Below, piece after piece: positions 9,188 through 30,311 of a DNA stretch of 64,000 nt. The stretch covers positions 1 to 64,000 of the forward strand of contig CALMBF010000165.1 of assembly GCA_937860145.1 (NCBI GenBank), given 5' to 3'. A program made the position numbers and the translations under genes. Numbering within the stretch: position 1 is the first letter of the stretch; every line of letters begins with the position of its first letter. The notes beneath the pieces are model-generated. The model ran no database searches, was not told the DNA's origin, and saw only the letters and a list, made by a program, of their open reading frames with translations. The stretch comes from an uncultured Geobacter sp. GTDB lineage: Bacteria; Desulfobacterota; Desulfuromonadia; Geobacterales; DSM-12255.

Positions 9188-10168
9188 TCAGCCGCCGATG
9201 CCGGACATGGCAAAGGCGCGCCGGTCATCTTCGTCCTGCTGCAGGGTATGTCCGACTGGTTTGTCCGTAACGATGTCATGCAGGACCCTGCGCAGCTCAC
9301 CGCGGTCACCGGAGCGGAGTGCAGGCTTCAGGTCCAGGCTCGCTCCGGCAAAAAGGCAGCCGTGGGCCATCCCCACCGACGACACCCTGATGCGGTTGCA
9401 ACTGCCGCAGAAATGGCCTGATATGGGGGTGATGAACCCGAGGGCGCCGGCTGCGCCGGCAATCCTGTAGTTCCTGGCCGGTCCCGCCGTCTCGCTGCTG
9501 ACAATGGGCAGCAACCGGTACTCCCGCACGATCCGGTCCAGGAGCTCCGATCCCGGAATGCTCTGTTTCTCCCAGTCCGGCTCCTGCAGGTTCGGCATGT
9601 ATTCGATGAAACGGACCGTGAATGCCCGGTCAAGGGTGAGACGGGCAAAGTCGAGGAGTTCGTCGTCGTTGATGCCGGCCATGACGACCATGTTGATCTT
9701 CGGTGGCGGGAAGCCGGCAGCCATGGCGGCTTCGATGCCGTCCAGCACCCGCTGCAGCTCTCCTCCACGGGTGATGGACGCAAAGGTGCCGGGCTTCAGG
9801 GAGTCGAGGCTGATGTTGAGCCTCTTTATCCCGGCGCGACGCAGGGGGGCGGCCATCTCGGCAAGAAGAAGGCCATTGGTGGTGAGGACCAGTTCCTTCA
9901 GGCCGGGGAGACGGGCCAGCTTCTCGCTGAACTCGACAATCCCCTTGCGTACCAGGGGCTCGCCGCCGGTAAGCCGTATCTTGTCTATCCCCAGGTCCAC
10001 CGCTTCCGCGGCGACCCGGTAGAGCTCTTCATAGGAGAGGATTTCCCGTTGGTGCCGTTTGCGTACCCCCTCGGCCGGCATGCAGTAACGGCACCGGAGA
10101 TTGCAGCGGTCGGTGACGGAGAGCCGGAGGTATCTGATTCGTCTGCCGTATCTGTCGATCATGTCCAT
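9188..10168 (-). CDS. moaA: GTP 3',8-cyclase MoaA
   Basis: A 326-residue radical SAM enzyme that carries out the first step of molybdopterin synthesis, GTP to 3',8-cyclo-GTP. It has the N-terminal cluster motif CNLRCRYCMP, TGGEPLVRK, a second 4Fe-4S site FCGSCNRIR...GCLF, and the C-terminal GG (SGIGG) needed for activity. The start is ATG 10168 because AAGGGTGG lies five bases upstream; a GTG three codons earlier would fall inside that site. It is the first gene of the long minus-strand operon and sits 36 nt downstream of a predicted sigma-54 transcription start. Confidence 0.95.
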   Translation of the reverse strand: MDMIDRYGRRIRYLRLSVTDRCNLRCRYCMPAEGVRKRHQREILSYEELYRVAAEAVDLGIDKIRLTGGEPLVRKGIVEFSEKLARLPGLKELVLTTNGLLLAEMAAPLRRAGIKRLNISLDSLKPGTFASITRGGELQRVLDGIEAAMAAGFPPPKINMVVMAGINDDELLDFARLTLDRAFTVRFIEYMPNLQEPDWEKQSIPGSELLDRIVREYRLLPIVSSETAGPARNYRIAGAAGALGFITPISGHFCGSCNRIRVSSVGMAHGCLFAGASLDLKPALRSGDRGELRRVLHDIVTDKPVGHTLQQDEDDRRAFAMSGIGG

Positions 10169-10215
10169 GGCAACCACCCTTGCAGCGGATGTTAACGACC
10201 CGCAGAGCTCTTAAG

Positions 10216-11923: not shown

Positions 11924-11945
11924 AGTTGATATGTCAGTTACAAAA

Positions 11946-12040
11946 CTCTCCGAGCCTCTCTGCCTAAAAGGATTGACCTCATGGCTGACGGCCAGTGGGT
12001 GCCGGCGGAAACGGCGGCGCCTCCCTTTCGGAAAGGAGAC
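11946..12040 (+). promoter_or_regulatory. Moco/Tuco-type riboswitch in the AOR leader
   Basis: Shares the blocks TCTCCGAG, GCCT, ATGGC, GGCCA and CCTCCC...GGAGA with the elements at 20291 and 21518. TCTCC (11947-11951) pairs with GGAGA (12035-12039). A GAAA-tetraloop hairpin (GCCGGCG/CGGCGGC) pairs at six of seven positions. No terminator lies between it and the AOR start, so control of translation is more likely. The blocks match the molybdenum/tungsten cofactor riboswitch motif as I recall it. Confidence 0.8.
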
Positions 12041-12087
12041 CGATCCGCAGTTGGCTTCACACAATCAAGAAAGGGAGTAGTTGCATC

Positions 12088-13818
12088 ATGGACAAAATCA
12101 TTCGCATCAACATGACCGACCTGACCAGCAAGGTCGAAGCCGTTCCGGCCGCCTGGGCCGGCCTCGGTGGCCGGGGGCTCACCTCCACCATCGTCGCCGC
12201 CGAAGTGCCGCCGACCTGCCATGCCCTGGGGCCCTACAACAAGCTGGTCTTTGCCCCGGGCCTTCTGACCGGCACGCCGGCCGCCAACTCGGGCCGCCTC
12301 TCCGCCGGCGCCAAGAGCCCGCTGACCGGCACCATCAAGGAGTCCAACGCCGGCGGTACCGCCGCCCAGATGCTGGCCCGCATGGGGATCAAGGCGCTGA
12401 TCATCGAGGGAAATCCGGCTGGCGATGCCTGGTACCACGTGCATCTCACCACCGCAGGGGTCACCATCACGGAAGAGACCGAGCTCGTCGGCAAGGGGAA
12501 CTTTGCCGTCATCGACGCCCTTGAGGCGCGCCTCGGGAAGAAGACCGGCGTCCTCACCATCGGTCCGGCCGGCGAGATGAAAATGACCGCCGCCAATATC
12601 TCGGTGAAGGATCCGGACAGCAAGATCCGCAGCCACGGCCGCGGCGGCCTCGGTGCGGTCATGGGCTCGAAGAGGATCAAGTGCATCACCATCGACGACG
12701 CCGGTGCGCCGAAGGTGGAGATCGCCGACCCCGAGAAGTTCAAGACCGCTGCCCGTGCCTTTGCCAAGGCGCTCCTCGACCACCCGGTCAGTGGTGAGGG
12801 ACTCCCCACCTACGGCACCAACGTGCTGGTGAACATACTCAACGAGGCCGGCGGCCTGCCGACGAAGAACTTCACCATCGGCCAGTTCGAGGGGCACGAG
12901 AAGATCTGCGGCGAGACCATGCACGATACCATCGCCAAGCGTGGCGGCAAGACCAAGCACGGCTGCCATGCGGGCTGCATCATCCAGTGCTCCCAGGTCT
13001 ACAACGACAAGGAGGGGAAGTACCTCACCTCCGGGTTCGAGTACGAGACCATCTGGGGTCTTGGGGCCGACTGCTGCATCGATAACCTGGACGACATCGC
13101 CACGGCCGACAACCTCATGGACGACATCGGCATCGACTCCATCGAAACCGCGGTCATGTTCGGTGTGGCCATGGAGGCCGGCATCCTCCAGTGGGGGGAC
13201 AGCACGGAGATGCTCCGCCTGCTCCGCGAGGAGATCGCCAAGGGGACGCCGCTGGGCCGCATCCTCGGTGGCGGTACCGGCTCCGTCGGCAAAGCCTACG
13301 GCGTGACCCGCGTCCCGGTGGTGAAGAACCAGGGTATCCCTGCCTATGACCCGCGCTCCGTGAAGGGGATCGGCATCACCTATGCCACCTCCACCATGGG
13401 GGCCGACCACACCGCGGGCTACACCATTGCCACCAACATCCTCAACGTCGGCGGCTACGTGGATCCCCTGAAGAAAGACGGCCAGGTGGAGCTCTCCCGC
13501 AACCTGCAGATCGCCACCGCCGCCGTGGATTCCACCGGCATGTGTATCTTCATCGCCTTCCCCGCCCTGGACATACCCGAGTGCCTGCCGGCCCTTATCG
13601 ACATGATCAACGCCCGTTTCGGCATCAACCTCACGGGCGACGACGTGACCAACCTGGGCAAACATATCCTCAAGGTGGAGCGCCAGTTCAACCTTGATGC
13701 CGGTTTCACCAACAAGGACGACCGGCTTCCCGAATTCTTCAATACCGAACCGGTGGCCCCTCATAATGTGGTGTGGGACTTTACCGGCGAGGAGATCGAC
13801 GAGTTCTGGAACTTCTAG
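12088..13818 (+). CDS. aor: Tungsten-dependent aldehyde:ferredoxin oxidoreductase
   Basis: A 576-residue AOR-family enzyme that oxidises aldehydes to acids and reduces ferredoxin. Seen: the pterin-binding GRGGLGAVMGSKRIK (residues 184-198), a cysteine cluster GCHAGCIIQC (Cys 293, 297, 301) for the 4Fe-4S centre, and D481-x4-C486 (DSTGMC) near the second pterin. The cysteine spacing is C-x3-C-x3-C, whereas Pyrococcus AOR has C-x2-C-x3-C. The ATG at 12088 has AAGGGAG upstream; a longer reading would start inside the riboswitch. Its own MoaD- and MoeB-like genes follow. The likely substrate is acetaldehyde from the adjacent dehydrogenase (inference). No AorA-type polyferredoxin or AorC subunit is nearby. 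Confidence 0.93.
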   Translation: MDKIIRINMTDLTSKVEAVPAAWAGLGGRGLTSTIVAAEVPPTCHALGPYNKLVFAPGLLTGTPAANSGRLSAGAKSPLTGTIKESNAGGTAAQMLARMGIKALIIEGNPAGDAWYHVHLTTAGVTITEETELVGKGNFAVIDALEARLGKKTGVLTIGPAGEMKMTAANISVKDPDSKIRSHGRGGLGAVMGSKRIKCITIDDAGAPKVEIADPEKFKTAARAFAKALLDHPVSGEGLPTYGTNVLVNILNEAGGLPTKNFTIGQFEGHEKICGETMHDTIAKRGGKTKHGCHAGCIIQCSQVYNDKEGKYLTSGFEYETIWGLGADCCIDNLDDIATADNLMDDIGIDSIETAVMFGVAMEAGILQWGDSTEMLRLLREEIAKGTPLGRILGGGTGSVGKAYGVTRVPVVKNQGIPAYDPRSVKGIGITYATSTMGADHTAGYTIATNILNVGGYVDPLKKDGQVELSRNLQIATAAVDSTGMCIFIAFPALDIPECLPALIDMINARFGINLTGDDVTNLGKHILKVERQFNLDAGFTNKDDRLPEFFNTEPVAPHNVVWDFTGEEIDEFWNF

Positions 13819-15016: not shown

Positions 15017-15238
15017 TCAGTGGTCCGCCTCTTCCTCTTCTGTCTGGTGCTTGGGACCCCGTGGTAATTCGATGAGTTCGGCGCCGACCGCATCGGCTAT
15101 GTGCTTCAGCTCGCACATCCGGAGATGCTGGCCATACACCTTGAGGTTCAGGTCGGCTACCGCCACCAGGATGTAGCGTGGCTGGTGCGCACCGTCCTTC
15201 ATCTTCGTTCGCTGCCGGTAAAAGATTTTTCCTGACAT
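15017..15238 (-). CDS. Small conserved-looking protein of unknown function
   Basis: A 73-residue basic N-terminus/acidic C-terminus protein (MSGKIFYRQRTKMKDGAHQP ... TEEEEADH). A well-placed AAAGGAGG nine bases before ATG 15238 and a good terminator after it support a real gene. It has one cysteine, no membrane segment and no recognised motif. It stands alone between the convergent MoeB-like gene and the storage-protein homologue, all inside the tungsten island. Function unknown. Confidence 0.7.
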   Translation of the reverse strand: MSGKIFYRQRTKMKDGAHQPRYILVAVADLNLKVYGQHLRMCELKHIADAVGAELIELPRGPKHQTEEEEADH

Positions 15239-15323
15239 GAAAGGGTGCCTCCTTTCCTCGTTGTCCCCCTCACCGGGAGGGGGGCTGCACCTCAAGTATA
15301 GCACATGGGGGGGAGATCGTCTG

Positions 15324-16130
15324 TCAAACCCTGATGACGGTGCCGGCCTTCTCGCCGGCCAGGGCCTTGGCGATGTTGCCCCGCTGGTGGCCGTTGACGA
15401 TGCGGATCTCCCTGACGTTGACCGTGTCCCGCAGGAGGTAGAGCATCTTCCGCTCCAGCACCATGTCTTCCATGTCCAGCTTGATCAGCTCCTCGACGGT
15501 GATCTCCTCGATCAGTTCCGCCGCGGGATTCACCCGGGGGTCCTCGGTGAAGAGGCCGTCCACGTTCTTCACCAGGATGCAGCTCCGGGCGCCGAGGACC
15601 TCGGCCATGAGGAGGGCGCCGGTATCCGTGCGGTGGGGAGGGATGAGGCCGGTTCCCGGCGGGTGCTCGTAGAGGCCGTAGGGTGGGGTGCCGTGAATGA
15701 CCGGCAGCAGCCCCAGGTGGAGCATGGTGGGGAGTTCGAGCAGGTCCGAGGTCTTGACCCGCGAGCCTCCCCAGCGGGAGAGGAGCAGGGTGGTGATGAC
15801 CGCGTTCTGCTCGCTGATCTTGCCGGCCAGTTCGGCCAGAACGCCGGTCGGCATCCCCAGGTCGATGCCGATGTCGAGAATGTGCCGGACCCGGACGCCG
15901 CCTCCGGTCACGACGAGCATCTTGTGCTCCCGGGACAGTTCGCCGATCTCCTTCATGAGAGGGAGCACCACTTCGCGGCCGTAGTCGATGATGCCGTGAC
16001 CGCCGATCTTGACCACGTTCAGTTCCGGCACCAGCCGCAGTGGCGCATGTTCGCCCATGCGGTGCATCAGTCCCTTGCGTACGAGCGTTTCCCCTTTGAG
16101 GGTTGAATTGATTTCGTGTCGTGATGTCAT
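15324..16130 (-). CDS. Molybdenum-storage-protein (MosA/MosB)-like amino-acid-kinase-fold protein
   Basis: A 268-residue protein of the amino acid kinase/UMP kinase fold. It resembles the MoSto subunits of Azotobacter more than UMP kinase: NVVKIGGHGIIDYGRE at the start, VTGGGVRVRHI, GTPPYGLYEHPP, the GLIPPHRTDTGALLMAE stretch (MosA has IPPHRADTGAFLLAD, from memory), VKNVDGLFTEDP, and VNGHQRGNIAKALAGEKAGTVI at the end. MoSto packs polynuclear molybdate or tungstate clusters in an ATP-dependent way. One gene here suggests a homo-oligomer. ATG 16130 is chosen because GAAGGAG precedes it; a GTG 12 codons upstream has no such site. Storage of tungstate is inferred from the neighbourhood. Confidence 0.8.
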   Translation of the reverse strand: MTSRHEINSTLKGETLVRKGLMHRMGEHAPLRLVPELNVVKIGGHGIIDYGREVVLPLMKEIGELSREHKMLVVTGGGVRVRHILDIGIDLGMPTGVLAELAGKISEQNAVITTLLLSRWGGSRVKTSDLLELPTMLHLGLLPVIHGTPPYGLYEHPPGTGLIPPHRTDTGALLMAEVLGARSCILVKNVDGLFTEDPRVNPAAELIEEITVEELIKLDMEDMVLERKMLYLLRDTVNVREIRIVNGHQRGNIAKALAGEKAGTVIRV

Positions 16131-16265
16131 GGTGATGATCTCCTTCGTGAAAGTCTGTTGATCCACGATAGCAGAGAATCTGGGATTGTCGAGGCCCCGG
16201 CAGCATGACGTTATCGTCTTTTTTTTGCAGCGGATCTAGGTGGCAGGGATGATGCAAACTTGCTG

Positions 16266-19951: not shown

Positions 19952-20290
19952 TAAATCCTGTGACAACGCTATGGGGCGGATCGTAGCAGATGTGGCGCAT
20001 CCGCCGCCATAGGGTTCCAATGGGGAGTTTCAGTAAAGGATTGCCTAAAAATACTATGAGGGTAGCGTTTTAAAATATTTTAGATTAATATCCTCATCTT
20101 GTTGATCTGGCCTGACAGGTCTAGCCGGCTTTCTGGGGATATATGCTACAGTTGTCACGGGCGTGATGTGGAGTAATGCAACAATTTAAGCCCGGTAAGT
20201 AAGCCACTAACCCGCCAAAGCCGTCTAGCGTGCCGTTTTGCCTTTGTGCTGTGGCGTGTGCATGTAATTTGCAGCTACATAAACGAATAA
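19952..20290. other. Intergenic region without a recognisable gene
   Basis: 339 nt with an AT-rich stretch at 20060-20095 and no convincing reading frame. It must hold the promoter for the riboswitch-led transcript that follows, but no clear -35/-10 pair was found. Confidence 0.6.
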
Positions 20291-20390
20291 CTCTCTCCGA
20301 GTCTTCTCGCCTACCGGGTTTATCCCCATGGCGTTTGGCCACTGGGTAGTGCTGGAAACGGCACTGCCTCCCTTTTGGAAAGGAGATCCC
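20291..20390 (+). promoter_or_regulatory. Moco/Tuco-type riboswitch before TiaS-like gene
   Basis: Same conserved blocks as the elements at 11946 and 21518. TCTCC (20294-20298) pairs with GGAGA (20382-20386). The GAAA hairpin AGTGCTG/CGGCACT pairs at all seven positions and differs in sequence from the other two copies, which is covariation. An intrinsic terminator follows at 20419, pointing to control by transcription termination. Confidence 0.85.
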
Positions 20391-20418
20391 GGAGCGCCGA
20401 AAGTCCGTTCGGTGTGTG

Positions 20419-20453
20419 AGGGACTCTTTCCATCTGGGGAGAGTCCCTTTTTT
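20419..20453 (+). terminator. Intrinsic terminator downstream of riboswitch
   Basis: AGGGACTCT (20419-20427) pairs with AGAGTCCCT (20440-20448) and is followed by a T6 run. It lies 52 nt before the TiaS-like start codon and is the probable expression platform. Confidence 0.85.
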
Positions 20454-20504
20454 ATTCGTAAATTCGGGCAGTAACGGCAGTCATATAAGCCATTCGAGGT
20501 GATT

Positions 20505-21248
20505 ATGCAGATCGCAATCAGTATCGATGATACCGACAATCTGGAGAGTCGGGGAACGGGGGCGCTGGCATCCCTCCTGGCCGAGGAGATTGAACTGAGG
20601 AGATGGGGAAGGAGCCACTATGTCACCCGCCATCAACTCCTGGTCCACCCGGACATCCCCTATACCTCCCACAACAGTGCCATGTGCTTTACGGCAGACA
20701 TCGTCCCGGAATACCTGCAGAGCATCATCGACTATGCCGCCGGCTTTCTCGACAGGGAGAGCGCAACCGGTTCGGATCCCGGTCTCTGTGTCGTGCCGAT
20801 CGATCGCCTGGAGCGGTGTGCCGATCTGATCCATTTCGGCCATAGGGCCAAGGAGGTCGTCCTTTCCAAGGAGGATGCCTATGCCCTGGCATCCCGGTCG
20901 GGCATTCACCTCTCCGAACATGGGGGGACCGGCCAGGGGGTGATCGGTGCCCTGGCCGGAGCCGGCCTGCGTCTCTCCGGTAATGACGGCAGACTTAAGG
21001 GGTGCCTGCCTGTCGCTGCCAGGAACGGTTGTGTCTCGGTGGCGGAACTGCGAGCCCATGACGATGTGGACGAGGTGCGCAGCATCGACGGCATCGAGTT
21101 GAGCGGGGACGAGCAGGTCCGGTTGGGGGACAAGGTAAAGACCGTGTTGCTGGAGGGGAAAGCGGTACTCCTCATCGAACCCCTCGCCGGTGCCGCCGAT
21201 GGCGTTGCCTGGCAGACCTGCTCCAAACAACGACTGAAGCGTTTTTGA
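20505..21248 (+). CDS. TiaS-like TCKD (IDDTD) domain protein, riboswitch-controlled
   Basis: A 247-residue protein starting MQIAISIDDTDNLESRGTGA. The SIDDTDN motif, the GGTGQGVIGALAGAGLRLSG segment (about residues 140-160) and a mixed alpha/beta pattern resemble the kinase-like TCKD domain of archaeal TiaS (tRNA-Ile2 agmatidine synthetase). The ferredoxin-like, OB-fold and zinc-ribbon domains of TiaS are absent, so a tRNA role is unlikely. Its leader carries a Moco/Tuco riboswitch and terminator, which implies a task in molybdenum/tungsten cofactor or metal metabolism. ATG 20505 follows GAGG; a GTG two codons earlier overlaps that site. Its stop is two bases before a small cysteine protein. 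Biochemical function unknown. Confidence 0.75.
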   Translation: MQIAISIDDTDNLESRGTGALASLLAEEIELRRWGRSHYVTRHQLLVHPDIPYTSHNSAMCFTADIVPEYLQSIIDYAAGFLDRESATGSDPGLCVVPIDRLERCADLIHFGHRAKEVVLSKEDAYALASRSGIHLSEHGGTGQGVIGALAGAGLRLSGNDGRLKGCLPVAARNGCVSVAELRAHDDVDEVRSIDGIELSGDEQVRLGDKVKTVLLEGKAVLLIEPLAGAADGVAWQTCSKQRLKRF

Positions 21249-21250
21249 CA

Positions 21251-21472
21251 ATGGAGTCTTTTCCGTTTTATCTGGATAGTACTGGACAGAGGCAGTTTGC
21301 GGGTGGCCAGGATGACTGGCGGAGCGCCGCCCAGGTGGCAGACCAGTGCCTGGAATTCCTTCAGGACGTGGATGAGGAGTTGGTCGCCGACGAGCCCCGT
21401 TCCTGCTACAACTGCCGTCTCCGGCGCTGGACCGCCCGTTCGTTCACCTGCATGGGAGACGGTTTTTTCTGA
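21251..21472 (+). CDS. Small cysteine-motif protein following the TiaS-like gene
   Basis: A 73-residue soluble protein (MESFPFYLDSTGQRQ...) with an acidic middle and a C-terminal SCYNCRLRRWTARSFTCMGD segment, where CxxC plus a third cysteine could bind zinc or an Fe-S cluster. ATG 21251 lies two bases after the upstream stop, so it is translationally coupled and shares the riboswitch. No recognised family. It could be the nucleic-acid- or metal-binding partner of the TiaS-like protein (speculative). Confidence 0.7.
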   Translation: MESFPFYLDSTGQRQFAGGQDDWRSAAQVADQCLEFLQDVDEELVADEPRSCYNCRLRRWTARSFTCMGDGFF

Positions 21473-21507: not shown

Positions 21508-21517
21508 TGAATAGTCT

Positions 21518-21617
21518 CACTTCTCCGAGCCGTACCGCCTGAAGGGACCTGTTTCCCATGGCGGCCGGCCATCGGGCCCTGCGGGAAACTGCAGGACCTT
21601 CCTCTGAAAAGGAGAAC
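21518..21617 (+). promoter_or_regulatory. Moco/Tuco-type riboswitch in the porin leader
   Basis: The best-conserved copy: TCTCCGAGCC, CCGCCTGAAGGGA, CCCATGGCGGCCGGCCA, and TCTCC (21522-21526) pairing with GGAGA (21611-21615). The GAAA hairpin CCTGCGG/CTGCAGG pairs at all seven positions. A hairpin at 21641 may be its expression platform. Confidence 0.87.
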
Positions 21618-21640
21618 CTCGTGTGGCGTACCTCCTGCGT

Positions 21641-21673
21641 CAAGGGGCTCTTCTATGCCAGGGGAGCCCCTTG
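21641..21673 (+). terminator. Hairpin downstream of the porin riboswitch
   Basis: A perfect 10-bp stem, CAAGGGGCTC with GAGCCCCTTG, followed by a weak U-rich tail (GTTGTTCT). Likely an attenuator. Confidence 0.6.
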
Positions 21674-21720
21674 GTTGTTCTGCGGGAATCATCCCGCTTA
21701 TTCCATGCATGGAGGTAAGA

Positions 21721-22959
21721 ATGAAAAGAGAAGTTATCGCGACGGCCGGCCTGTTGGCCATGGTCCTCTGCCAGGGGGCAGAGGCAAAGACCCTGGAGGA
21801 TGTCCTCAAGGAGAAGGGGGTCATTACCGAGGCAGACTACAAGGAGATCACCGCTAGCAAGGCTCTCAGCTACAAACCGGGGAAGGGATTCACCTTCAGC
21901 TCCGAGGACGAGAAGTTCAAACTCTCCCTGGGGGGGAGGGTCCAGGCCCGCTATACCTTCACCGACCTTGAGGACAACAGCAAGAGCGCCGATTCGAGCA
22001 AGTGGGAAGTCCGGCGGATGAAGCTCTGGCTCGCCGGCAATGCCTACAGCAAGGACCTCACCTATCTCTTCCAGGCCGATTTTACCCAGGGGAGCTCGTC
22101 CAAGCTCCTCGAGCACGCCTACCTGAACTACCGCCTGATCGACGAACTCCAGATCCTCGCGGGCCAGACCAAAGTCCCCTTCGGCCGGCAGTGGCTCAAC
22201 TCTTCCGGGGGGCTGCAGTTTGTTGACCGCTCGGTCGTCTCCGATACCTTCCGCCCCGGCTATGACGCGGGGGTAAAACTTTCCGGCGACATCCTGAACG
22301 GCCTGACAACCTACGAAGTGGGGGTGTACGGCGGGGCCGGCCAGAGCACGACCCGCACCGTCAACGACAATGCCGTTGCCGCGAGGGTGACGGTGAACCC
22401 CTTTGGCAAGGTGGCATATACGGAGTCAGACCTGGACAACAGTGTTAAACCGCTTCTCTCCCTCGGCGGCAACTACTACGGCAATACCCTGCAGAAGACG
22501 GGGGCCTCGACCCTCGAAACGAACAACGTTACCCTGGCCGGCACCAGCGGCTGGCTCGGCAAGGGGCTGTCCACCTTCAATGCCAGTGAGAAGGTCGACG
22601 TCAACAGCTTCGGAGCCGATGCAGTTTTCAAGTGGCGCGGTCTTTCGGCCCAGGCCGAGTACCTCCTTGGGCAGGCCGATGGCCAGACCACCAGCAAGAC
22701 GCTCCGTGCCCATGGCTTCCATGCCCAGGCCGGTTACTGCATCATCCCCAAGACTCTTGAAGCGGCGTTCCGTTACGGTTACCTCGATCCAAACCGGGAC
22801 AAGAGCAACGACCTCGTCAGGGAGACCGCCGGTGCGATCTCCTGGTACTTCGACAAGCATAACCTGAAACTCCAGGGTGATATCACCAACACCCACGACC
22901 AGGCCAAGGGGAAAGCGGATGACTTAGCGTTCCGGCTCCAGGCCCAGCTTACTTTCTAG
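21721..22959 (+). CDS. OprO/OprP-type anion porin, riboswitch-controlled
   Basis: A 412-residue outer-membrane protein with a signal peptide (MKREVIATAGLLAMVLCQGAEA). An N-terminal EDVLKEKGVITEADYKE segment typical of the porin O/P family is followed by alternating beta strands: GGRVQARYTF, EVRRMKLWLAG, LTYLFQADF, AGQTKVPFGRQ. The C-terminus ends in Phe (LQAQLTF), the assembly signal of beta-barrels. Phosphate-selective porins of this family pass oxyanions. Here the gene has a Moco/Tuco riboswitch leader and lies upstream of moaE and tungstate-transport genes, so tungstate or molybdate uptake across the outer membrane is a reasonable inference. GGAGG lies before ATG 21721; an in-frame start at 21655 would lie inside the leader hairpin. 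Confidence 0.88.
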   Translation: MKREVIATAGLLAMVLCQGAEAKTLEDVLKEKGVITEADYKEITASKALSYKPGKGFTFSSEDEKFKLSLGGRVQARYTFTDLEDNSKSADSSKWEVRRMKLWLAGNAYSKDLTYLFQADFTQGSSSKLLEHAYLNYRLIDELQILAGQTKVPFGRQWLNSSGGLQFVDRSVVSDTFRPGYDAGVKLSGDILNGLTTYEVGVYGGAGQSTTRTVNDNAVAARVTVNPFGKVAYTESDLDNSVKPLLSLGGNYYGNTLQKTGASTLETNNVTLAGTSGWLGKGLSTFNASEKVDVNSFGADAVFKWRGLSAQAEYLLGQADGQTTSKTLRAHGFHAQAGYCIIPKTLEAAFRYGYLDPNRDKSNDLVRETAGAISWYFDKHNLKLQGDITNTHDQAKGKADDLAFRLQAQLTF

Positions 22960-23012: not shown

Positions 23013-23402
23013 TTGATTCTTTCAGTTACCCATGACCCGATCGATCCGGCGGCAGCCTATGGATGTATTGAAAAAAATAAGACCGGCTCGGTTGTCTTTC
23101 ACTATGCTGTTGTTAAATCGCAACGAGGAGCGGGCGGCTTGACGAGTTGTATCGAATATGAAACCACTGCCGGTACAGAGCGGGAGATGGCGGGCATTGC
23201 CGCCGAGCTGCAGGATAAATGGCATATTGAGGACGTGCTGCTCATTAGGAGAGTGGGATGTCTGGGTGTCGGTGATATAATTTCCCTGGTTGCGGTCAGT
23301 TCACCCAACAGTGAAGATGCATTTGCCTCATGCCGGCATGGTATCACCCTGATGAAAAAGATGACCACCATCGTGAAGCGGGAAATATTTGCCGCAGCGT
23401 GA
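23013..23402 (+). CDS. moaE: Molybdopterin synthase catalytic subunit MoaE
   Basis: A 129-residue MoaE-like protein that would transfer sulfur from thiocarboxylated MoaD to precursor Z. It retains the CIEYET strand, KWHIEDVLLIRRVGCLGVGD, AVSSPNSEDAFASCRHGI and the lysine-rich end LMKKMTTIVKRE. The N-terminal region is divergent from the usual GTVR motif. It uses a TTG start at 23013, with GGAGG eight bases upstream and no better ATG. No MoaD gene is adjacent; the MoaD-like protein at 13888 is the only visible partner. Confidence 0.85.
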   Translation: MILSVTHDPIDPAAAYGCIEKNKTGSVVFHYAVVKSQRGAGGLTSCIEYETTAGTEREMAGIAAELQDKWHIEDVLLIRRVGCLGVGDIISLVAVSSPNSEDAFASCRHGITLMKKMTTIVKREIFAAA

Positions 23403-23549: not shown

Positions 23550-24401
23550 ATGCGCAGCATACGTCTGGTATCTGGATTGGTTGCCTTGATCTGTTTAATG
23601 GGCACTATTTCGCTGGCTGAGGATCGCACAATCCTCATGGCGAGCACAATCGGTCCGATTGATGCCGGGATAGTGCCGGCGCTTGAGGATCAGTTCGAAA
23701 AAGAAAGCGGTATCCGTGTCAGACATGTTGGTGCGGGGACCGGTGAGGCCTTGAAAATAGCTGAACAGGGAACTGTCGACCTGGTGTTGGTGCACGCAAA
23801 ATCGCTGGAGGAGAAGTTCGTTGCGGCCGGTTACGGCACCGAGCGCATCCCATTCATGTACAACGATTTCGTCATTGTCGGCCCGGCTGATGACCCGGCA
23901 GGTATCCGTGGCATGAAGAGTGCGCCAACGGCGCTTGCCACCATAGCCCGGCAGCAGAAGCGGTTCATCAGTCGCGGCGACAAATCGGGTACCCACGTGG
24001 CCGAACTGGAGCTCTGGTCAAAGGGTGGGGTGAAACCGGCTGGTGACTGGTATGTGTTTTATGAGAAGGGTCGTGAAGGGAATGGTCCGACTCTGAAATA
24101 TACAGACCAGCAGGGTGCTTATACGGTTATCGATCGAGCTACATGGTTGTCGCTGAAAGCGGGCCTTCGATTGCAGGTATTGGTTGAAGGTGACGAAGCA
24201 CTACTCAACTATATTTCTCTTATCCCGATTAACCCTGCACGTTTCCCGAAAGTTGACCATGGCGCAGCCATGGCTTTCATCTCCTGGCTTACCGATCCGG
24301 ACAAGGGGCAACTGCTGGTGCGGGATTTTGGCAGGGAGAAGTTCGGTGAGCCGCTCTTTTTTCCCAATTCCCTTGACTGGGTGCGACGCATGAAAAAATA
24401 A
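23550..24401 (+). CDS. TupA-like periplasmic binding protein, divergent paralogue
   Basis: A 283-residue secreted protein (signal peptide MRSIRLVSGLVALICLMGTISLA). It is homologous along its length to the TupA encoded next: EQGTVDLVLVHAKSLEEKFV, YNDFVIVGPADDPAGIRGMK, FISRGDKSGTHVAELELW, IPINPARFPKVDHGAAMAF, KFGEPLFFPN. The tungstate-binding TTTS motif of TupA is replaced by STIGPIDAG, so ligand contacts differ. It may bind a different oxyanion or tune specificity while sharing TupBC. RBS AAGGGGG precedes the ATG. Confidence 0.85.
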   Translation: MRSIRLVSGLVALICLMGTISLAEDRTILMASTIGPIDAGIVPALEDQFEKESGIRVRHVGAGTGEALKIAEQGTVDLVLVHAKSLEEKFVAAGYGTERIPFMYNDFVIVGPADDPAGIRGMKSAPTALATIARQQKRFISRGDKSGTHVAELELWSKGGVKPAGDWYVFYEKGREGNGPTLKYTDQQGAYTVIDRATWLSLKAGLRLQVLVEGDEALLNYISLIPINPARFPKVDHGAAMAFISWLTDPDKGQLLVRDFGREKFGEPLFFPNSLDWVRRMKK

Positions 24402-24438: not shown

Positions 24439-24546
24439 GATAGAGCTATGTTTCCATGGTTACAGCCGTACCTGTTTTGCTGTTTGTTGCAAGCAGGATG
24501 TAATGATTCTGCAGACCACTACCATATGAACACAAGGAGGAACATC

Positions 24547-25404
24547 ATGAAGGGTAAGGTACGCTTTTCACACGGGCTTTCTGTTCTGGCGATGCTGGTT
24601 GTCTTTGCGCTCTCCACGACGGCAGGCGCTGCCAGCAAGAACCTGATCCTCGCCACCACCACCAGTACCCAGGATTCGGGCCTTCTGGACGTGCTTCTGC
24701 CGGTCTTCGAGAAGGAGAGCGGCTATTTCGTCAAGACCATTGCGGTCGGTTCCGGCCAGGCCATGGCCATGGGGGAGAAGGGGGAGGCCGATGTGCTCCT
24801 GGTCCACTCGCCGGAGGCGGAAAAGAAGTTCATGGATAAGGGGGCCGGCAGTTCCCGCCGCCTCGTCATGCACAACGATTTCATCATCGTCGGACCGGCG
24901 GGTGACCCGGCGAAAATCCGCGGCGTGAAGACGTCGGCCGAAGCGTTCAAGAAAATTGCCCACTCCGGCAGCATCTTCCTTTCCCGTGGCGACAACTCCG
25001 GTACCCATGCCAAGGAGAAGGGACTCTGGAAGAGTGCAGCGGTCAGCGCCGAAGGGCAGAAGTGGTACCAGCAGACCGGCCTGGGGATGGGGCAGACCCT
25101 GAACGTGGCGGCCGAGAAGAAGGGGTATACCCTGACCGACCGCGCTACCTACCTGTCGATGAAAAAAAACCTCGGCCTGGAGATCCTGGTTGAGGGGGAT
25201 GCCAAACTGCTCAACATTTACCACGTTATCGAGGTGAATCCGGCCAAGTGGCCCAAGGTTAACTCACCAGCTGCCAAGGCATTCGCCGACTTCATGGTGT
25301 CGAAGAGGACCCAGGAGCTCATCGGCAGATTCGGTGTGGACAAGTTCGGCGCACCGCTCTTCTTCCCCGATGCGGGTAAGAAACCGGAGTCACTGGGGTT
25401 GTAA
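24547..25404 (+). CDS. tupA: Tungstate ABC transporter substrate-binding protein
   Basis: A 285-residue periplasmic protein with a signal peptide ending near STTAGAASK. The mature N-terminus carries the tungstate-binding signature ATTTSTQDSGLLD, followed by GSGQAMAMGEKGEADVLLVHSP, NDFIIVGPAGDPAKIRG, LSRGDNSGTH and DKFGAPLFFP. These are canonical for TupA, which binds tungstate far better than molybdate. ATG 24547 follows AAGGAGG. It heads tupABC; the stop is immediately followed by the tupB ATG. Confidence 0.93.
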   Translation: MKGKVRFSHGLSVLAMLVVFALSTTAGAASKNLILATTTSTQDSGLLDVLLPVFEKESGYFVKTIAVGSGQAMAMGEKGEADVLLVHSPEAEKKFMDKGAGSSRRLVMHNDFIIVGPAGDPAKIRGVKTSAEAFKKIAHSGSIFLSRGDNSGTHAKEKGLWKSAAVSAEGQKWYQQTGLGMGQTLNVAAEKKGYTLTDRATYLSMKKNLGLEILVEGDAKLLNIYHVIEVNPAKWPKVNSPAAKAFADFMVSKRTQELIGRFGVDKFGAPLFFPDAGKKPESLGL

Positions 25405-26103
25405 ATGGACCTGATCCTCGACGGCATCCGCATGGCCTGGCATCTCCTTGTCACTCTCGACAAGGAGGTGCTTGCCGTAACGCTCCTCTCCCTGAAGGTT
25501 TCCGGCCTGGCAACTCTGATCAGCTTGGTTATCGGCGTAATCGGCGGGACAGCCATCGCCCTGGCCGATTTCCCCGGCAAGCGGCTCATGGTGAGCGTAG
25601 TCAACACCAGCATGGGGCTGCCCCCGGTAGTGGTCGGCCTGTTCGTGACCATCATGCTCTGGCGTAACGGCCCCCTGAGCCGCTGGGAAATTCTCTATAC
25701 TCCGACGGCCATGGTGATCGCCCAGACGATCATCGCGGCTCCCATCGTCATGGGGATTTCCATCGCGGCGATCCAGAACCTCCCTCCCGACCTGCGGTTG
25801 CAGATCCTCGCCCTAGGTGCGTCCCGGCGACAGATGGTCTGGCTGCTGGTGAGGGAGGCGCGACTCCCCCTCATGGCAGGGATCATGGCAGGTTTCGGCG
25901 GGGTGATCTCCGAAGTCGGGGCCTCCATCATGGTCGGCGGCAACATCAAGGGGTATACCCGGGTGCTGACCACCGCCACGGTGATGGAGACGGGGAAGGG
26001 GAACTTCGACACGGCCATAGCCCTGGGTGTCATCCTCCTGGCCCTCTGTTTCGCCGTCAACTATCTGCTCACCCGGGTGCAGCAGCGGGAGAGGCCGCGA
26101 TGA
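25405..26103 (+). CDS. tupB: Tungstate ABC transporter permease
   Basis: A 232-residue inner-membrane permease with about five to six membrane segments. The ABC-interaction loop contains ALGASRRQMVWLLVREARLPLMAG, in the EAA position of TupB/ModB-type permeases. It begins directly after the tupA stop and overlaps tupC by 4 bp (ATGA), so tupABC are translationally coupled. Confidence 0.93.
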   Translation: MDLILDGIRMAWHLLVTLDKEVLAVTLLSLKVSGLATLISLVIGVIGGTAIALADFPGKRLMVSVVNTSMGLPPVVVGLFVTIMLWRNGPLSRWEILYTPTAMVIAQTIIAAPIVMGISIAAIQNLPPDLRLQILALGASRRQMVWLLVREARLPLMAGIMAGFGGVISEVGASIMVGGNIKGYTRVLTTATVMETGKGNFDTAIALGVILLALCFAVNYLLTRVQQRERPR

Positions 26104-27194
26104 ACGGTGACACCGTCATCCTCGAGGCGAGGGACCTGGTCGTACGGCGGGGAGGTGCCGAGGTCCTCTCCGTGCCGGAGTTTACCCTCCACGAGCGGGA
26201 AAGCGTGGCCCTCATCGGTCCGAACGGCGCGGGGAAATCGACCATGCTCCTGTCCCTGGCGACCCTCCTGCAACCGTCGGCCGGTGACATCCTGTTCCAC
26301 GGCTCCCGGGTGCAGGCTTCCGGCGGGGATACCTCCTACCGGCGGCGGATCGCCATGGTGTTCCAGGAGCCGCTTCTCTTCGACACGACGGTGTTCGACA
26401 ATGTAGCCTCCGGACTGAAGATCCGGGGAGTTCCCCGCGACGAAATCAGGAAGCGGGTCGGCGAGTGCCTGGAACGTTTTCATATCGACCACCTGGCGGA
26501 TCGCTCAGCTCGCCGGATTTCCGGTGGCGAGGTCCAGCGGACCAGCCTCGCCCGGGCCTTTGCCACCCGGCCCGAAGTGGTGTTCCTGGATGAACCGTTT
26601 ATCGCCCTCGACCCACCGACCCGCCATGCGCTGATGGTCGACCTGGCCCAGGTGCTCAGGGATTCGGGGAGTTCCGCCATCATCGCGACCCATGACCAGA
26701 TGGAGGCCCTGCGCCTGGCGGACCGGATGATGGTGATGCAGGGGGGGCGTGTCGTCCAGTCCGGCACCACGGCGGAGGTGACCGCCCATCCGGTCAACGC
26801 ATTTGCCGCCTCGTTCGTCGGCATGGAGAATGTCCTCACCGGGTCGGTCGTCTCGTCAGCCGGCGGGATGCTCACCCTGGACGTCGCCGGCCGGACGATG
26901 GAGATCGTTGGCAGCGGTTCCCCCGGCGAGCGGGTGGTGCTCTGCACCCACCCGGAGCACGTGGTGGTGACCACGGTAGATCCCCACCACCGTACCAGTG
27001 CCCGTAACGTGTTCCCGGGAACGGTCACGCGCATCGTCCCTCTCGGAGCGGTGCACAAGGTCTACCTGGACTGCGGTTTCCCCCTGGTGGCATCCGTTAC
27101 CGCCCACTCCCTCGCCGAGTTGGGGATGGTGCCGGGAAGCCGGGTTTTTGCCTCCTTCAAGGCGACGTCGGTGCACCTCTACCGCAAGGGGTGA
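26100..27194 (+). CDS. tupC: Tungstate ABC transporter ATP-binding protein
   Basis: A 364-residue ATPase: Walker A GPNGAGKST (about residues 41-49), Q-loop VFQEPLLF, signature ISGGEVQ, Walker B VVFLDEPF, and H-loop ATHDQ. The C-terminal extension of about 110 residues looks like a TOBE/MOP oxyanion-sensing domain (VFPGTVTRIVPLGAVHKVYLDCG, SFKATSVHLYR), found in ModC and some TupC. It energises TupB. Confidence 0.92.
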   Translation: MNGDTVILEARDLVVRRGGAEVLSVPEFTLHERESVALIGPNGAGKSTMLLSLATLLQPSAGDILFHGSRVQASGGDTSYRRRIAMVFQEPLLFDTTVFDNVASGLKIRGVPRDEIRKRVGECLERFHIDHLADRSARRISGGEVQRTSLARAFATRPEVVFLDEPFIALDPPTRHALMVDLAQVLRDSGSSAIIATHDQMEALRLADRMMVMQGGRVVQSGTTAEVTAHPVNAFAASFVGMENVLTGSVVSSAGGMLTLDVAGRTMEIVGSGSPGERVVLCTHPEHVVVTTVDPHHRTSARNVFPGTVTRIVPLGAVHKVYLDCGFPLVASVTAHSLAELGMVPGSRVFASFKATSVHLYRKG

Positions 27195-27257
27195 GGCGTG
27201 AGCCTGCTGCGCAGCGCGAGGAGTGCTGCAACCGTTTTTTTTAAAGGAGTATCTGTC

Positions 27258-28475
27258 ATGCCTACCTTTGACGAGGCCCGTCACATGGTTCTCTCCCGCA
27301 TCACCACCCTCGGCGTGGAGCGGGTCCCCCTTCTCGATGCCGCCGGCCGGGTGCTTGCCGAAGAGATGGTTGCCCCCTGGTGCATGCCCCTGTGCGACAG
27401 TTCGGCCATGGACGGTTTCGCCGTGCGTGCCGCCGACTGCGGTTCGCTGCCGGCCGACCTGAGGGTGACCGGCTACATCCCGGCAGGCGGGGAGATCTGC
27501 GGAGACGTGGCACCGGGGTGTGCCATCAGGATCATGACCGGCGCCCCCATCCCGCCGGGGTGCGACGCGGTGGTGCCGGTCGAGGAGACCAGCGAACGGG
27601 GTGACGTGGTGACGCTGCACGATCCGGTCAGGACGGGCCAGCATATCCGCGTGACCGCAGAGGACGTTGCCGTCGGCGAGACCATCATCACCGCCGGGAC
27701 GCTCCTGCGCTCCCCCGAGATCAGCATGCTCGCCTCCTTCGGACGGGCGCTGGTGCCGGTCTACCGCCGCGCCAGGGTGGCGATCCTCTCCACGGGCGAC
27801 GAACTGGTGGAGCTCGGGGAACCGCTGGTCCCGGGCAAGATCATCAACAGCAACATCCTCTCCCTGGCGGCTGCGGTGCGGGAGATCGGCGCCGAGCCGC
27901 TGCTCCTCGGCATTGCCCGGGACAACCGGGAGAGCCACCTGGAGAAGATGACCGAGGGGCTCAAGGCCGACGCCTTCATCACCTCGGCCGGCGTATCGGC
28001 CGGCGACCGCGACCTGGTGCGTGACATCCTGGCCGAGCTGGGGGTGGAGCAGCTCTTCTGGAAAGTGGAGATGAAGCCGGGGGGGCCGACAGCCGTCGCC
28101 ATGTTCGGGGGGAAGCCGGTTTTCTCCCTCCCGGGCAACCCGGTCTCCACCATGGTCACCTTCGAGGCGTTCGCCCGTCCGGCGCTGTTGAAGATGATGG
28201 GGCACCGGCGCATCTTCCGCCCCGTGGTGACCGCGACCCTGATGAACGACCTGCGCAAGAAACCGGGGAAGGTGAACCTCATCAGGGTGAGCCTGGCGAA
28301 AGGGGAGGACGGCTTCCAGGCCTACTCGTCCGGCATCCAGCAGACCGCCCTGCTGAAGACCATGCTCCGGGCCGATGCCCTGGCACTCTTCCCCTCCGAA
28401 CTGGAGACCCTGGAGAGGGGGGCGACGGTGCAGTGCCACCTGCTGCGGGAGGAGCTCTTCATGGGGGAGGAGTAG
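27258..28475 (+). CDS. moeA: Molybdopterin molybdenumtransferase MoeA
   Basis: A 405-residue MoeA that inserts molybdate or tungstate into adenylylated molybdopterin. It has CDSSAMDGFAVRA, RIMTGAPIPPGCDAVVPVEE, STGDELVELGEPLVPGKIINSN, SAGVSAGDRDLVRD, KPGGPTAVAMFGGKPVFSLPGNP-type motifs and the C-terminal domain IV. ATG 27258 has AAAGGAG; the frame extends 20 codons upstream without a site. It follows tupC by 63 nt, so metal entry and insertion are likely co-expressed. A tungsten preference cannot be read from sequence. Confidence 0.94.
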   Translation: MPTFDEARHMVLSRITTLGVERVPLLDAAGRVLAEEMVAPWCMPLCDSSAMDGFAVRAADCGSLPADLRVTGYIPAGGEICGDVAPGCAIRIMTGAPIPPGCDAVVPVEETSERGDVVTLHDPVRTGQHIRVTAEDVAVGETIITAGTLLRSPEISMLASFGRALVPVYRRARVAILSTGDELVELGEPLVPGKIINSNILSLAAAVREIGAEPLLLGIARDNRESHLEKMTEGLKADAFITSAGVSAGDRDLVRDILAELGVEQLFWKVEMKPGGPTAVAMFGGKPVFSLPGNPVSTMVTFEAFARPALLKMMGHRRIFRPVVTATLMNDLRKKPGKVNLIRVSLAKGEDGFQAYSSGIQQTALLKTMLRADALALFPSELETLERGATVQCHLLREELFMGEE

Positions 28476-28584: not shown

Positions 28585-29073
28585 ATGAGCTTCAATCATT
28601 TCGACGACAAGGGGCAGGCGATCATGGTGGACGTGAGCGCCAAGAGTCCGACCCTGCGCACCGCAACTGCCGGCGCCGTGGTGCGGATGAGCCACAAGAC
28701 CCTGGCGGCTGTCGCCACAGGCGGCATGGCCAAGGGGGACGTGCTGGGCGTGGCCCGACTCGCGGGGATTGCCGCTGCCAAGAAGACCCCCGATTTGATC
28801 CCCCTCTCCCATCCCCTGGCGCTCCACCATGCGTCCATCGAGTTTACCCTGGACCAGGAGCAGGGGTGCGTCCGTATCGAGGCGACGGTGCGGGCCTTCG
28901 AACGGACCGGGGTGGAGATGGAGGCCATGGTGGCGGCCTCCGTGGCGGCCCTGACCGTTTACGACATGTGCAAGGGGATGGAGAAGGGGATCGCCATCAG
29001 CGACGTCGTGCTCCTCCGCAAGGAGGGGGGCAAGAGCGGTACCTGGCAACGGGGGCTCCCCTGGGGAGAGTAG
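28585..29073 (+). CDS. moaC: Cyclic pyranopterin monophosphate synthase MoaC
   Basis: A 162-residue enzyme of the second step of cofactor synthesis. It shows MVDVSAKSPTLRTATA, the active-site segment IPLSHPLALHHASIEFTLD, EATVRAFERTGVEMEAM and VYDMCKGMEKGIAISDVVLL with the catalytic lysine and aspartate. GGGAGGTGACCC precedes the ATG. It lies 109 nt after moeA. Confidence 0.95.
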   Translation: MSFNHFDDKGQAIMVDVSAKSPTLRTATAGAVVRMSHKTLAAVATGGMAKGDVLGVARLAGIAAAKKTPDLIPLSHPLALHHASIEFTLDQEQGCVRIEATVRAFERTGVEMEAMVAASVAALTVYDMCKGMEKGIAISDVVLLRKEGGKSGTWQRGLPWGE

Positions 29074-29288: not shown

Positions 29289-30311
29289 ATGAAGGCAGCA
29301 ATACTGACCTTGAGCGACCGGAGTTCCCGGGGCGAACGGGCCGATGCGAGCGGGCCGGCACTTGAGACATGGCTGGAGGAACGGGGTGTGGCGACGCTCT
29401 ACCGGGAGGTCATCCCCGATGACGAGGAGACCATTGTGGTCAAGCTGATGGGGTGGGCGGACAGCGGCTCGTTCGACCTGATTCTCACCACCGGCGGAAC
29501 TGGCGTTTCTCCCCGTGACGTTACGCCCGATGCCACCAGGCGGGTCATTGACCGTGAGATTCCGGGGTTCGGCGAAACCATGCGGGCCGAGAGCCTGAAG
29601 AAGACCCCCCATGCCATGATCTCCCGTGCAGTCGCCGGTATCCGCGGCCGGAGCCTGATCATTAACCTCCCCGGGAGCCCGAAGGGGGCCGTGGAGAACC
29701 TGGAGTCGGTCTGGAGGGCCGTCCCCCATGCGGTGGCCAAGCTCCAGGGGGACCCGGAAGAGTGCGGCACACCGGTTGCGGCCCCGCCCGCGGGGCGTTC
29801 CCTGCCGCGGGCGCTCTCCTTCGTGGCCAAGTCGGGCACCGGCAAGACCACCCTGCTGGAGCAGGTGATCGCCGGGCTGAAGGGGCGGGGGTGGCGGATC
29901 GGCGTCATCAAGCACGACGCCCACCGCTTCGACATCGACCATCCGGGTAAGGACAGTTACCGCCTGACCGCTGCCGGTGCCGACACCATGCTGATCTCCT
30001 CCCCGGAGAAGCTGGCCCTGGTGAAGAGGCACGATGCAGCGCCCCCCATAGAGGAGCTGCTTGCCACCTACTTCGGTGATGTGGATCTCGTTCTCACCGA
30101 GGGTTTCAAGAAGAGTGGCCTTCCCAAGATCGAGGTACATCGCCGGGAGCGGAGCTCAACCCTCCTCTGCCGGGGGGAGGAGCATGACCCGACCCTCGTG
30201 GCCGTGGCCAGCGATGTGACCCTCGAGCTTGATGTGCCGGTGCTGGACCTGAACGATCCGCCGGAGGTCGTCAGCTTCATCGAAAAACACTTCCTTGATA
30301 CCCCCGTATAG
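29289..30311 (+). CDS. MogA-MobB fusion protein
   Basis: A 340-residue two-domain protein. Residues 1-165 are MogA-type molybdopterin adenylyltransferase (LTLSDRSSRGERAD, TTGGTGVSPRDVTPDAT, MISRAVAGIRG, NLPGSPKGAVENLE). After a Pro/Ala linker, residues about 176-335 are MobB (P-loop VAKSGTGKTTLLEQ, VIKHDAHRFDIDHPGKDSYR, EGFKKSGLPKIEV), a GTPase linked to guanine-dinucleotide cofactor formation. Fusion puts adenylylation and later nucleotide handling on one chain. It is the last gene before a strong terminator. Confidence 0.93.
   Translation: MKAAILTLSDRSSRGERADASGPALETWLEERGVATLYREVIPDDEETIVVKLMGWADSGSFDLILTTGGTGVSPRDVTPDATRRVIDREIPGFGETMRAESLKKTPHAMISRAVAGIRGRSLIINLPGSPKGAVENLESVWRAVPHAVAKLQGDPEECGTPVAAPPAGRSLPRALSFVAKSGTGKTTLLEQVIAGLKGRGWRIGVIKHDAHRFDIDHPGKDSYRLTAAGADTMLISSPEKLALVKRHDAAPPIEELLATYFGDVDLVLTEGFKKSGLPKIEVHRRERSSTLLCRGEEHDPTLVAVASDVTLELDVPVLDLNDPPEVVSFIEKHFLDTPV

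Follow-up and report, generated by a model that had tools for sequence, protein, structure and literature searches.

TiaS, the archaeal tRNA-Ile2 2-agmatinylcytidine synthetase, contains a kinase-like domain (TCKD, PF22641) and is called a dual protein and RNA kinase in the title of a paper listed in PMC6313347 (Terasaka 2011). Among regulatory RNAs, the P3-less form of the Moco-family riboswitch RF01055 has been assigned to the tungsten cofactor, or Tuco (Regulski et al. 2008, PMC2408646). MolBC-A of H. influenzae (HI1470-1472) imports molybdate with low affinity, and its MolA component binds both molybdate and tungstate (PMC4031551). Little is known of how anaerobes acquire trace tungsten, or of how the metal reaches the cofactor from a transporter or store. 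Here we describe, in a 64,000-nt stretch of DNA (the window), a 247-aa enzyme with a predicted TCKD fold and a 73-aa cysteine protein, smC, which very probably belong to a module for tungsten and molybdenum (W/Mo) acquisition and storage.

A covariance-model search of the window returned three RF01055 matches, all on the + strand. The first to be considered (20283-20401) precedes the enzyme gene and is a full-length match whose 68.7 bits exceed the gathering score of 36. Its P3 columns are deleted, as they are in the match on the far side of the enzyme-smC pair (21511-21630, 60.0 bits), which lies ahead of a porin gene and moaE; the third match (11936-12056, 60.8 bits) lies ahead of aor. Downstream of the 20283-20401 aptamer, an intrinsic terminator at 20418-20449 (+), consisting of a 14-pair stem and then a T run, is present in the minimum-free-energy fold, and the leader from 20283 to 20452 has a fold energy of -78 kcal/mol (z = -5.3). 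The Moco/Tuco aptamer and terminator that a sequence-only reading had placed before the 247-residue protein are thus both found, and together they likely form a transcription-terminating expression platform. By analogy with the described P3-less form, we propose Tuco as the ligand of this leader. Across relatives, a Moco-family riboswitch lies upstream within the same-strand run in only 37 of 79 enzyme loci and directly upstream in 15 of them.

The enzyme gene (20505-21248, +) is read from an ATG at 20505 that follows an SD-like GAGGTG, with a GTG at 20499 as a possible alternative start. Its best NCBIfam match is methan_mark_11 (TIGR03280), through the TCKD region, with an E value of 1e-11 and 44.6 bits against a cut-off of 255.8. 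The TiaS profile NF040849 gives 1e-9 and 37.3 bits against a cut-off of 600; this alignment ends at residue 157 of the enzyme and position 154 of the 422 in the model, and the 247-aa protein does not span the full-length model, in which the FLD, OB and Zn-ribbon regions of TiaS follow the TCKD. TiaS chains are also the top PDB sequence matches (E 2e-4), with DDTD (residues 8-11) and Thr18 in register. An AlphaFold2 model built from a 65-sequence alignment (pLDDT 90.3, pTM 0.87) superposes on TiaS over 153 residues with a Z score of 21.6, 2.0 Å rmsd and 25% identity (Foldseek 2.8e-10), and unrelated folds come next, with Z below 9. The enzyme is, by prediction, of the TiaS kinase-like fold with its catalytic motif intact, and the model suggests ATP-dependent chemistry. 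The comparison bears out the proposed relationship to the TiaS domain but not the accompanying claim that the protein consists of that domain only, as about 90 C-terminal residues extend beyond the TCKD. The pterin pyrophosphokinase HPPK appeared in the same fold search, but at a Z of about 7.5, which unrelated ferredoxin-like folds also reach, and so it was given no weight in favour of a pterin substrate.

Residues D8, D9, T10, D11 and T18 are identical in 79/79 enzyme sequences compared, and Thr18 is the residue that is autophosphorylated in TiaS. Two further motifs, HNSxMCF (56-62) and DPGLC (91-95), are specific to the enzyme family. In Syntrophomonadia the gene occurs in tandem copies, one of which has lost D11 and T18 (DDSL or DDSR, with A18) while neighbouring copies are intact, a pattern that suggests the catalytic residues are important to active copies. 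The altered paralogues (L105:10109, L106:7645 and L111:8735) stand beside intact copies in L105 and L106, suggesting a pseudo-enzyme partner. A 603-aa open frame in genome G136 that resembled a TCKD fusion proved to be read-through of an upstream frame. Altogether, 325 relatives of the enzyme were found in genomic sequences and none in viral contigs. With so many genomic relatives, and with smC adjoining the gene in most loci, the observation is not due to chance.

The smC gene (21251-21472, +) begins 2 nt after the enzyme ORF, which ends at 21248. The coupling of the pair therefore stands, but the partner, earlier described as a CxxC protein, has a four-cysteine pattern: C33, C52, C55 and C67 are invariant in 46 aligned sequences, together with N54, R58 and W60. 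The AlphaFold2 model of smC is compact (pLDDT 89.7), and the cysteines would be suited to a Cys4 metal site. Searches of PDB folds gave smC no match at E below 1, Pfam and NCBIfam profiles gave it no family match, and neither smC nor the enzyme reached a curated Pfam/NCBIfam cut-off.

In the window the pair is clustered with tupABC-like genes, moaE and moeA, all on the + strand. Immediately downstream is a Porin_O_P/ExtI-like outer-membrane porin (21721-22959; PF07396 5.6e-22, ExtI model 1.3e-7); the placement of a Tuco-type riboswitch before it (21511-22959 in all) suggests cofactor control of outer-membrane oxyanion entry. A MoaE-like gene (23013-23402; PF02391 6e-24) is followed by two TupA-like tungstate-binding proteins (23550-24401 and 24448-25404; NF041772 at 165 and 251 bits, cut-off 400), a TupB-like permease (25405-26103; NF041773 1e-46, 160 bits, cut-off 320) and an ABC ATPase whose best model is the tungstate ATPase WtpC (26100-27194; 8.6e-80, 269 bits, cut-off 440). 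The two adjacent TupA-like genes are diverged and stand ahead of a single TupB and a single ATPase. MoeA-like (27198-28475), MoaC (28585-29073; TIGR00581 above cut-off) and MogA-MobB fusion (29289-30311; TIGR00176 and TIGR00177 above cut-off) genes complete this side. On the other side lie moaA (9188-10177, -) and, nearby, the gene for the tungsten enzyme aldehyde:ferredoxin oxidoreductase (aor, 11995-13818, +), in which PF02730 matches from residue 34, along with PF01314, and whose true start is probably near 12090. The pair is extra to the known cofactor genes, as had been claimed.

Between aor and the pair we also found a gene that the earlier reading had left out, a homologue of the beta subunit of molybdenum storage protein (MoSto) at 15324-16166 (-). 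It is 46% identical over 265 aa to a homologue in locus L060, which in turn matches MoSto beta (MosB) at 1.5e-73 over most of its length. An open frame on the opposite strand (15237-16106, +) was rejected as a gene, since the MoSto-like gene is the actual one there. Next to it, c14 (15017-15304, -) encodes a partner of about 90 aa that is 44% identical to the L060 neighbour and adjoins MoSto-like genes in relatives. The window thus has a MoSto beta homologue and a conserved c14, with no obvious alpha subunit alongside.

To place the pair in a wider context, we surveyed 80 enzyme loci from named genomes. The recurrent neighbours were smC, ABC ATPases, FecCD permeases, Peripla_BP_2 binding proteins, ECF S and T components, TonB receptors with TonB/ExbBD, and SLH/Big_5 or fn3 surface proteins. 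In Firmicutes the enzyme closes MolBC-A-like ABC operons, as in L089, where a FecCD permease and a MolA-type binding protein that are not in the window stand beside it. The closest PDB match of the Firmicute FecCD protein is MolB (HI1471, 5.8e-75), and the binding protein matches MolA (HI1472, 2.9e-24), ranked second to an uncharacterised binding protein. SLH and Big_5 surface proteins head the L089 operon (L089:3484-6977) behind Moco-family riboswitches, possibly for extracellular metal capture, and a membrane Fe-S/CCG protein of about 686 aa repeatedly adjoins the enzyme in some Firmicutes (L061, L070 and L078). Elsewhere, the TonB receptor has BtuB as its closest match (8e-25), and MoSto genes join the enzyme in operons of the order enzyme-smC-MoSto (L099) or enzyme-MoSto (L103 and L119). 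A 20-kb cluster in G047 brings many of these elements together: moeA, tup genes, a porin, TonB, the enzyme, ECF components, a TonB receptor, moeB, aor, MoSto and smC.

Co-occurrence was examined in 156 genomes of the host's class, with P values that ignore phylogeny and, the genomes being related, are nominal. After one of 42 enzyme matches, a 24-residue fragment in G081, had been dropped, 41 carriers and 115 other genomes remained. The smC gene is present in 39/41 carriers and 0/115 others (Fisher 9e-35; by genus 15/16 versus 0/43, 4e-13) and is kept even when unlinked, including on different contigs (G037, G047, G136 and G156). Import and storage genes follow the enzyme similarly: the ECF S-component occurs in 29/41 carriers versus 0/115 others, the TonB receptor in 30/41 versus 0/115, and a MoSto homologue in 29/41 versus 1/115, the exception being G005. 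All 41 carriers possess an import system or a MoSto homologue (18 with S-component and MoSto, 11 with S-component only, 11 with MoSto only, and G136 with the TonB receptor alone). A Moco-family riboswitch is found in 40/41 carrier genomes versus 59/115 others (p 9e-9). The association with AOR holds for copy number, with means of 4.4 in carriers and 2.6 in others (p 2e-6), but not for presence (40/41 versus 102/115, p 0.12). The link to W/Mo biology drawn in the sequence-only reading is supported.

A second sample drew 63 genomes from the class to which Syntrophomonas palmitatica belongs, with 29 carriers and 34 others. Here smC occurs in 20/29 carriers versus 2/34 others (p 1e-7). In one smC-bearing genome without the enzyme, G263, smC sits close to one end of a 3-kb contig, behind a binding-protein fragment, so incomplete assembly may account for the absence of an enzyme gene; a weak smC match in G253 had no clear smC gene behind it. 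Since 9 of the 29 carriers lack smC, it is smC that depends on the enzyme and not the reverse.

The enzyme accompanies three import routes and a store, so the simplest common task would be to convert carrier-bound metal into a usable form. The phrase carrier-bound metal is a unifying guess, prompted by the presence of the same enzyme with TupABC-like, MolBC-A-like and ECF systems. Our preferred reading is an acquisition-and-storage module in which an ATP-using enzyme and a Cys4 partner free or activate such metal for cofactor synthesis; taken whole, it is a serious candidate that stops just short of probable. Under this reading, a fall in Tuco would relieve the terminator and allow the enzyme-smC pair to be made. 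The enzyme would use ATP through DDTD and Mg, probably with a Thr18 phospho-intermediate as in TiaS, and thereby free or activate metal held either in an imported chelate or, as oxometalate, in the MoSto-like protein. The Cys4 protein smC could then serve as metal acceptor or chaperone, after which MogA and MoeA would insert the metal into molybdopterin. Within a tungsten (or molybdenum) regulon, the pair would supply the enzymatic part located in the cytosol.

A broader and more tentative proposal is that anaerobes may scavenge complexed W/Mo, as a metallophore chelate or as tungstopterin, through a TonB receptor and an ECF or MolBC-A-like importer, with the TiaS-fold ATP enzyme and the Cys4 protein releasing or re-phosphorylating the cargo, a new route by which environmental or stored metal would reach the cofactor. 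Our search of the open literature, with subscription papers outside its reach, found no description of the enzyme-smC pair or of a tungsten system built on TonB/ECF. Domains and transporter classes alike belong to known kinds, and the case for a new pathway is plausible.

Among other explanations, we consider cofactor salvage unlikely, although much of its layout is present. Here the TonB/ECF or FecCD importer would take up tungstopterin- or molybdopterin-type compounds, the enzyme would trap a dephosphorylated pterin by phosphorylating it, and smC would be a cofactor carrier. Salvage kinases are common, a TiaS-type fold predicts an ATP enzyme, and a cofactor riboswitch over a BtuB-like TonB receptor, FecCD and ECF transporters resembles vitamin salvage. 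However, the auxotrophy expected of pure salvage was sought among 50 enzyme-bearing genomes and not found, MoaA being present in 49/50. The window organism, moreover, has the enzyme with tupABC-like genes and the MoSto-like gene and lacks the S-component and TonB receptor, and the cargo of MolBC-A itself is molybdate, with molybdate and tungstate as the ligands of MolA (PMC4031551).

Somewhat less probable again is an additional step in the Tuco/Moco pathway, in which a pterin or metal-pterin intermediate would be phosphorylated or activated with a nucleotide. The enzyme does share one gene cluster with moaE, moeA and moaC in the window, but AOR in 102/115 and the riboswitch in 59/115 enzyme-negative genomes imply that these organisms presumably do without the enzyme when making the cofactor, so that cofactor synthesis in itself is unlikely to require it. 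The genes most strongly associated with the enzyme serve import and storage and are not moa/moe genes. The new cofactor step offered by the sequence-only reading accordingly keeps its W/Mo setting, but the context (MolBC-A-like, TonB/ECF, tupABC-like and MoSto) points to the import and storage of metal more than to new cofactor chemistry. An equally improbable role is that of a regulator that phosphorylates or senses, gating transporters or the storage protein. It would accord with the dual protein and RNA kinase of the TiaS title (Terasaka 2011, in PMC6313347) and with protein-protein roles suggested by the Syntrophomonadia paralogue that lacks D11 and T18 beside active copies, but a single enzyme accompanies three unrelated transporter classes and no target site was identified. 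Finally, a TiaS-like role in tRNA-Ile2 modification is very improbable despite the common TCKD fold and DDTD/T18, because the protein has 247 aa versus about 420, the NF040849 match (37 bits versus a cut-off of 600) stops after the TCKD, the loci examined have a W/Mo context, and 115/156 class genomes lack the gene, a strange pattern for an essential function in AUA decoding. Co-occurrence with tRNA-Ile2 features in place of tungsten genes, which the sequence-only reading had named as a result that would refute it, was not observed.

We return to the acquisition-and-storage reading, under which two unnamed protein families whose gains and losses parallel those of import and storage genes form a compact, testable module, one that would give the TCKD fold a role beyond archaeal tRNA modification and methanogen marker genes. 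Set against known systems, the enzyme resembles TiaS in fold over about 153 residues and in DDTD and Thr18, but its sequence alignment reaches only residue 157-158 of 247, its scores are far under the cut-offs, and it is bacterial, with HNSxMCF and DPGLC motifs and a W/Mo context. Its TCKD region is likewise similar to methanogenesis marker protein 11, although the enzyme falls far below that cut-off and is found here in bacteria. The leader matches RF01055 over its full length and lacks P3, as does the proposed Tuco subclass (PMC2408646). The import genes recall BtuB with ECF/BtuCDF vitamin uptake, given a receptor nearest BtuB, a CbiQ-type EcfT and an S-component, but are here associated with the enzyme and with Moco-family riboswitches. 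We know of no ECF importer that takes oxyanions. The MoSto-like neighbours in relatives, and the window homologue, resemble MosB of MosAB but mostly occur as a single MosB-like gene with the small partner c14. Lastly, the FecCD and Peripla_BP_2 proteins of the Firmicute operons match MolB and MolA, whereas these operons differ from MolBC-A in having SLH/Big_5 proteins at the head and the enzyme and smC at the end.
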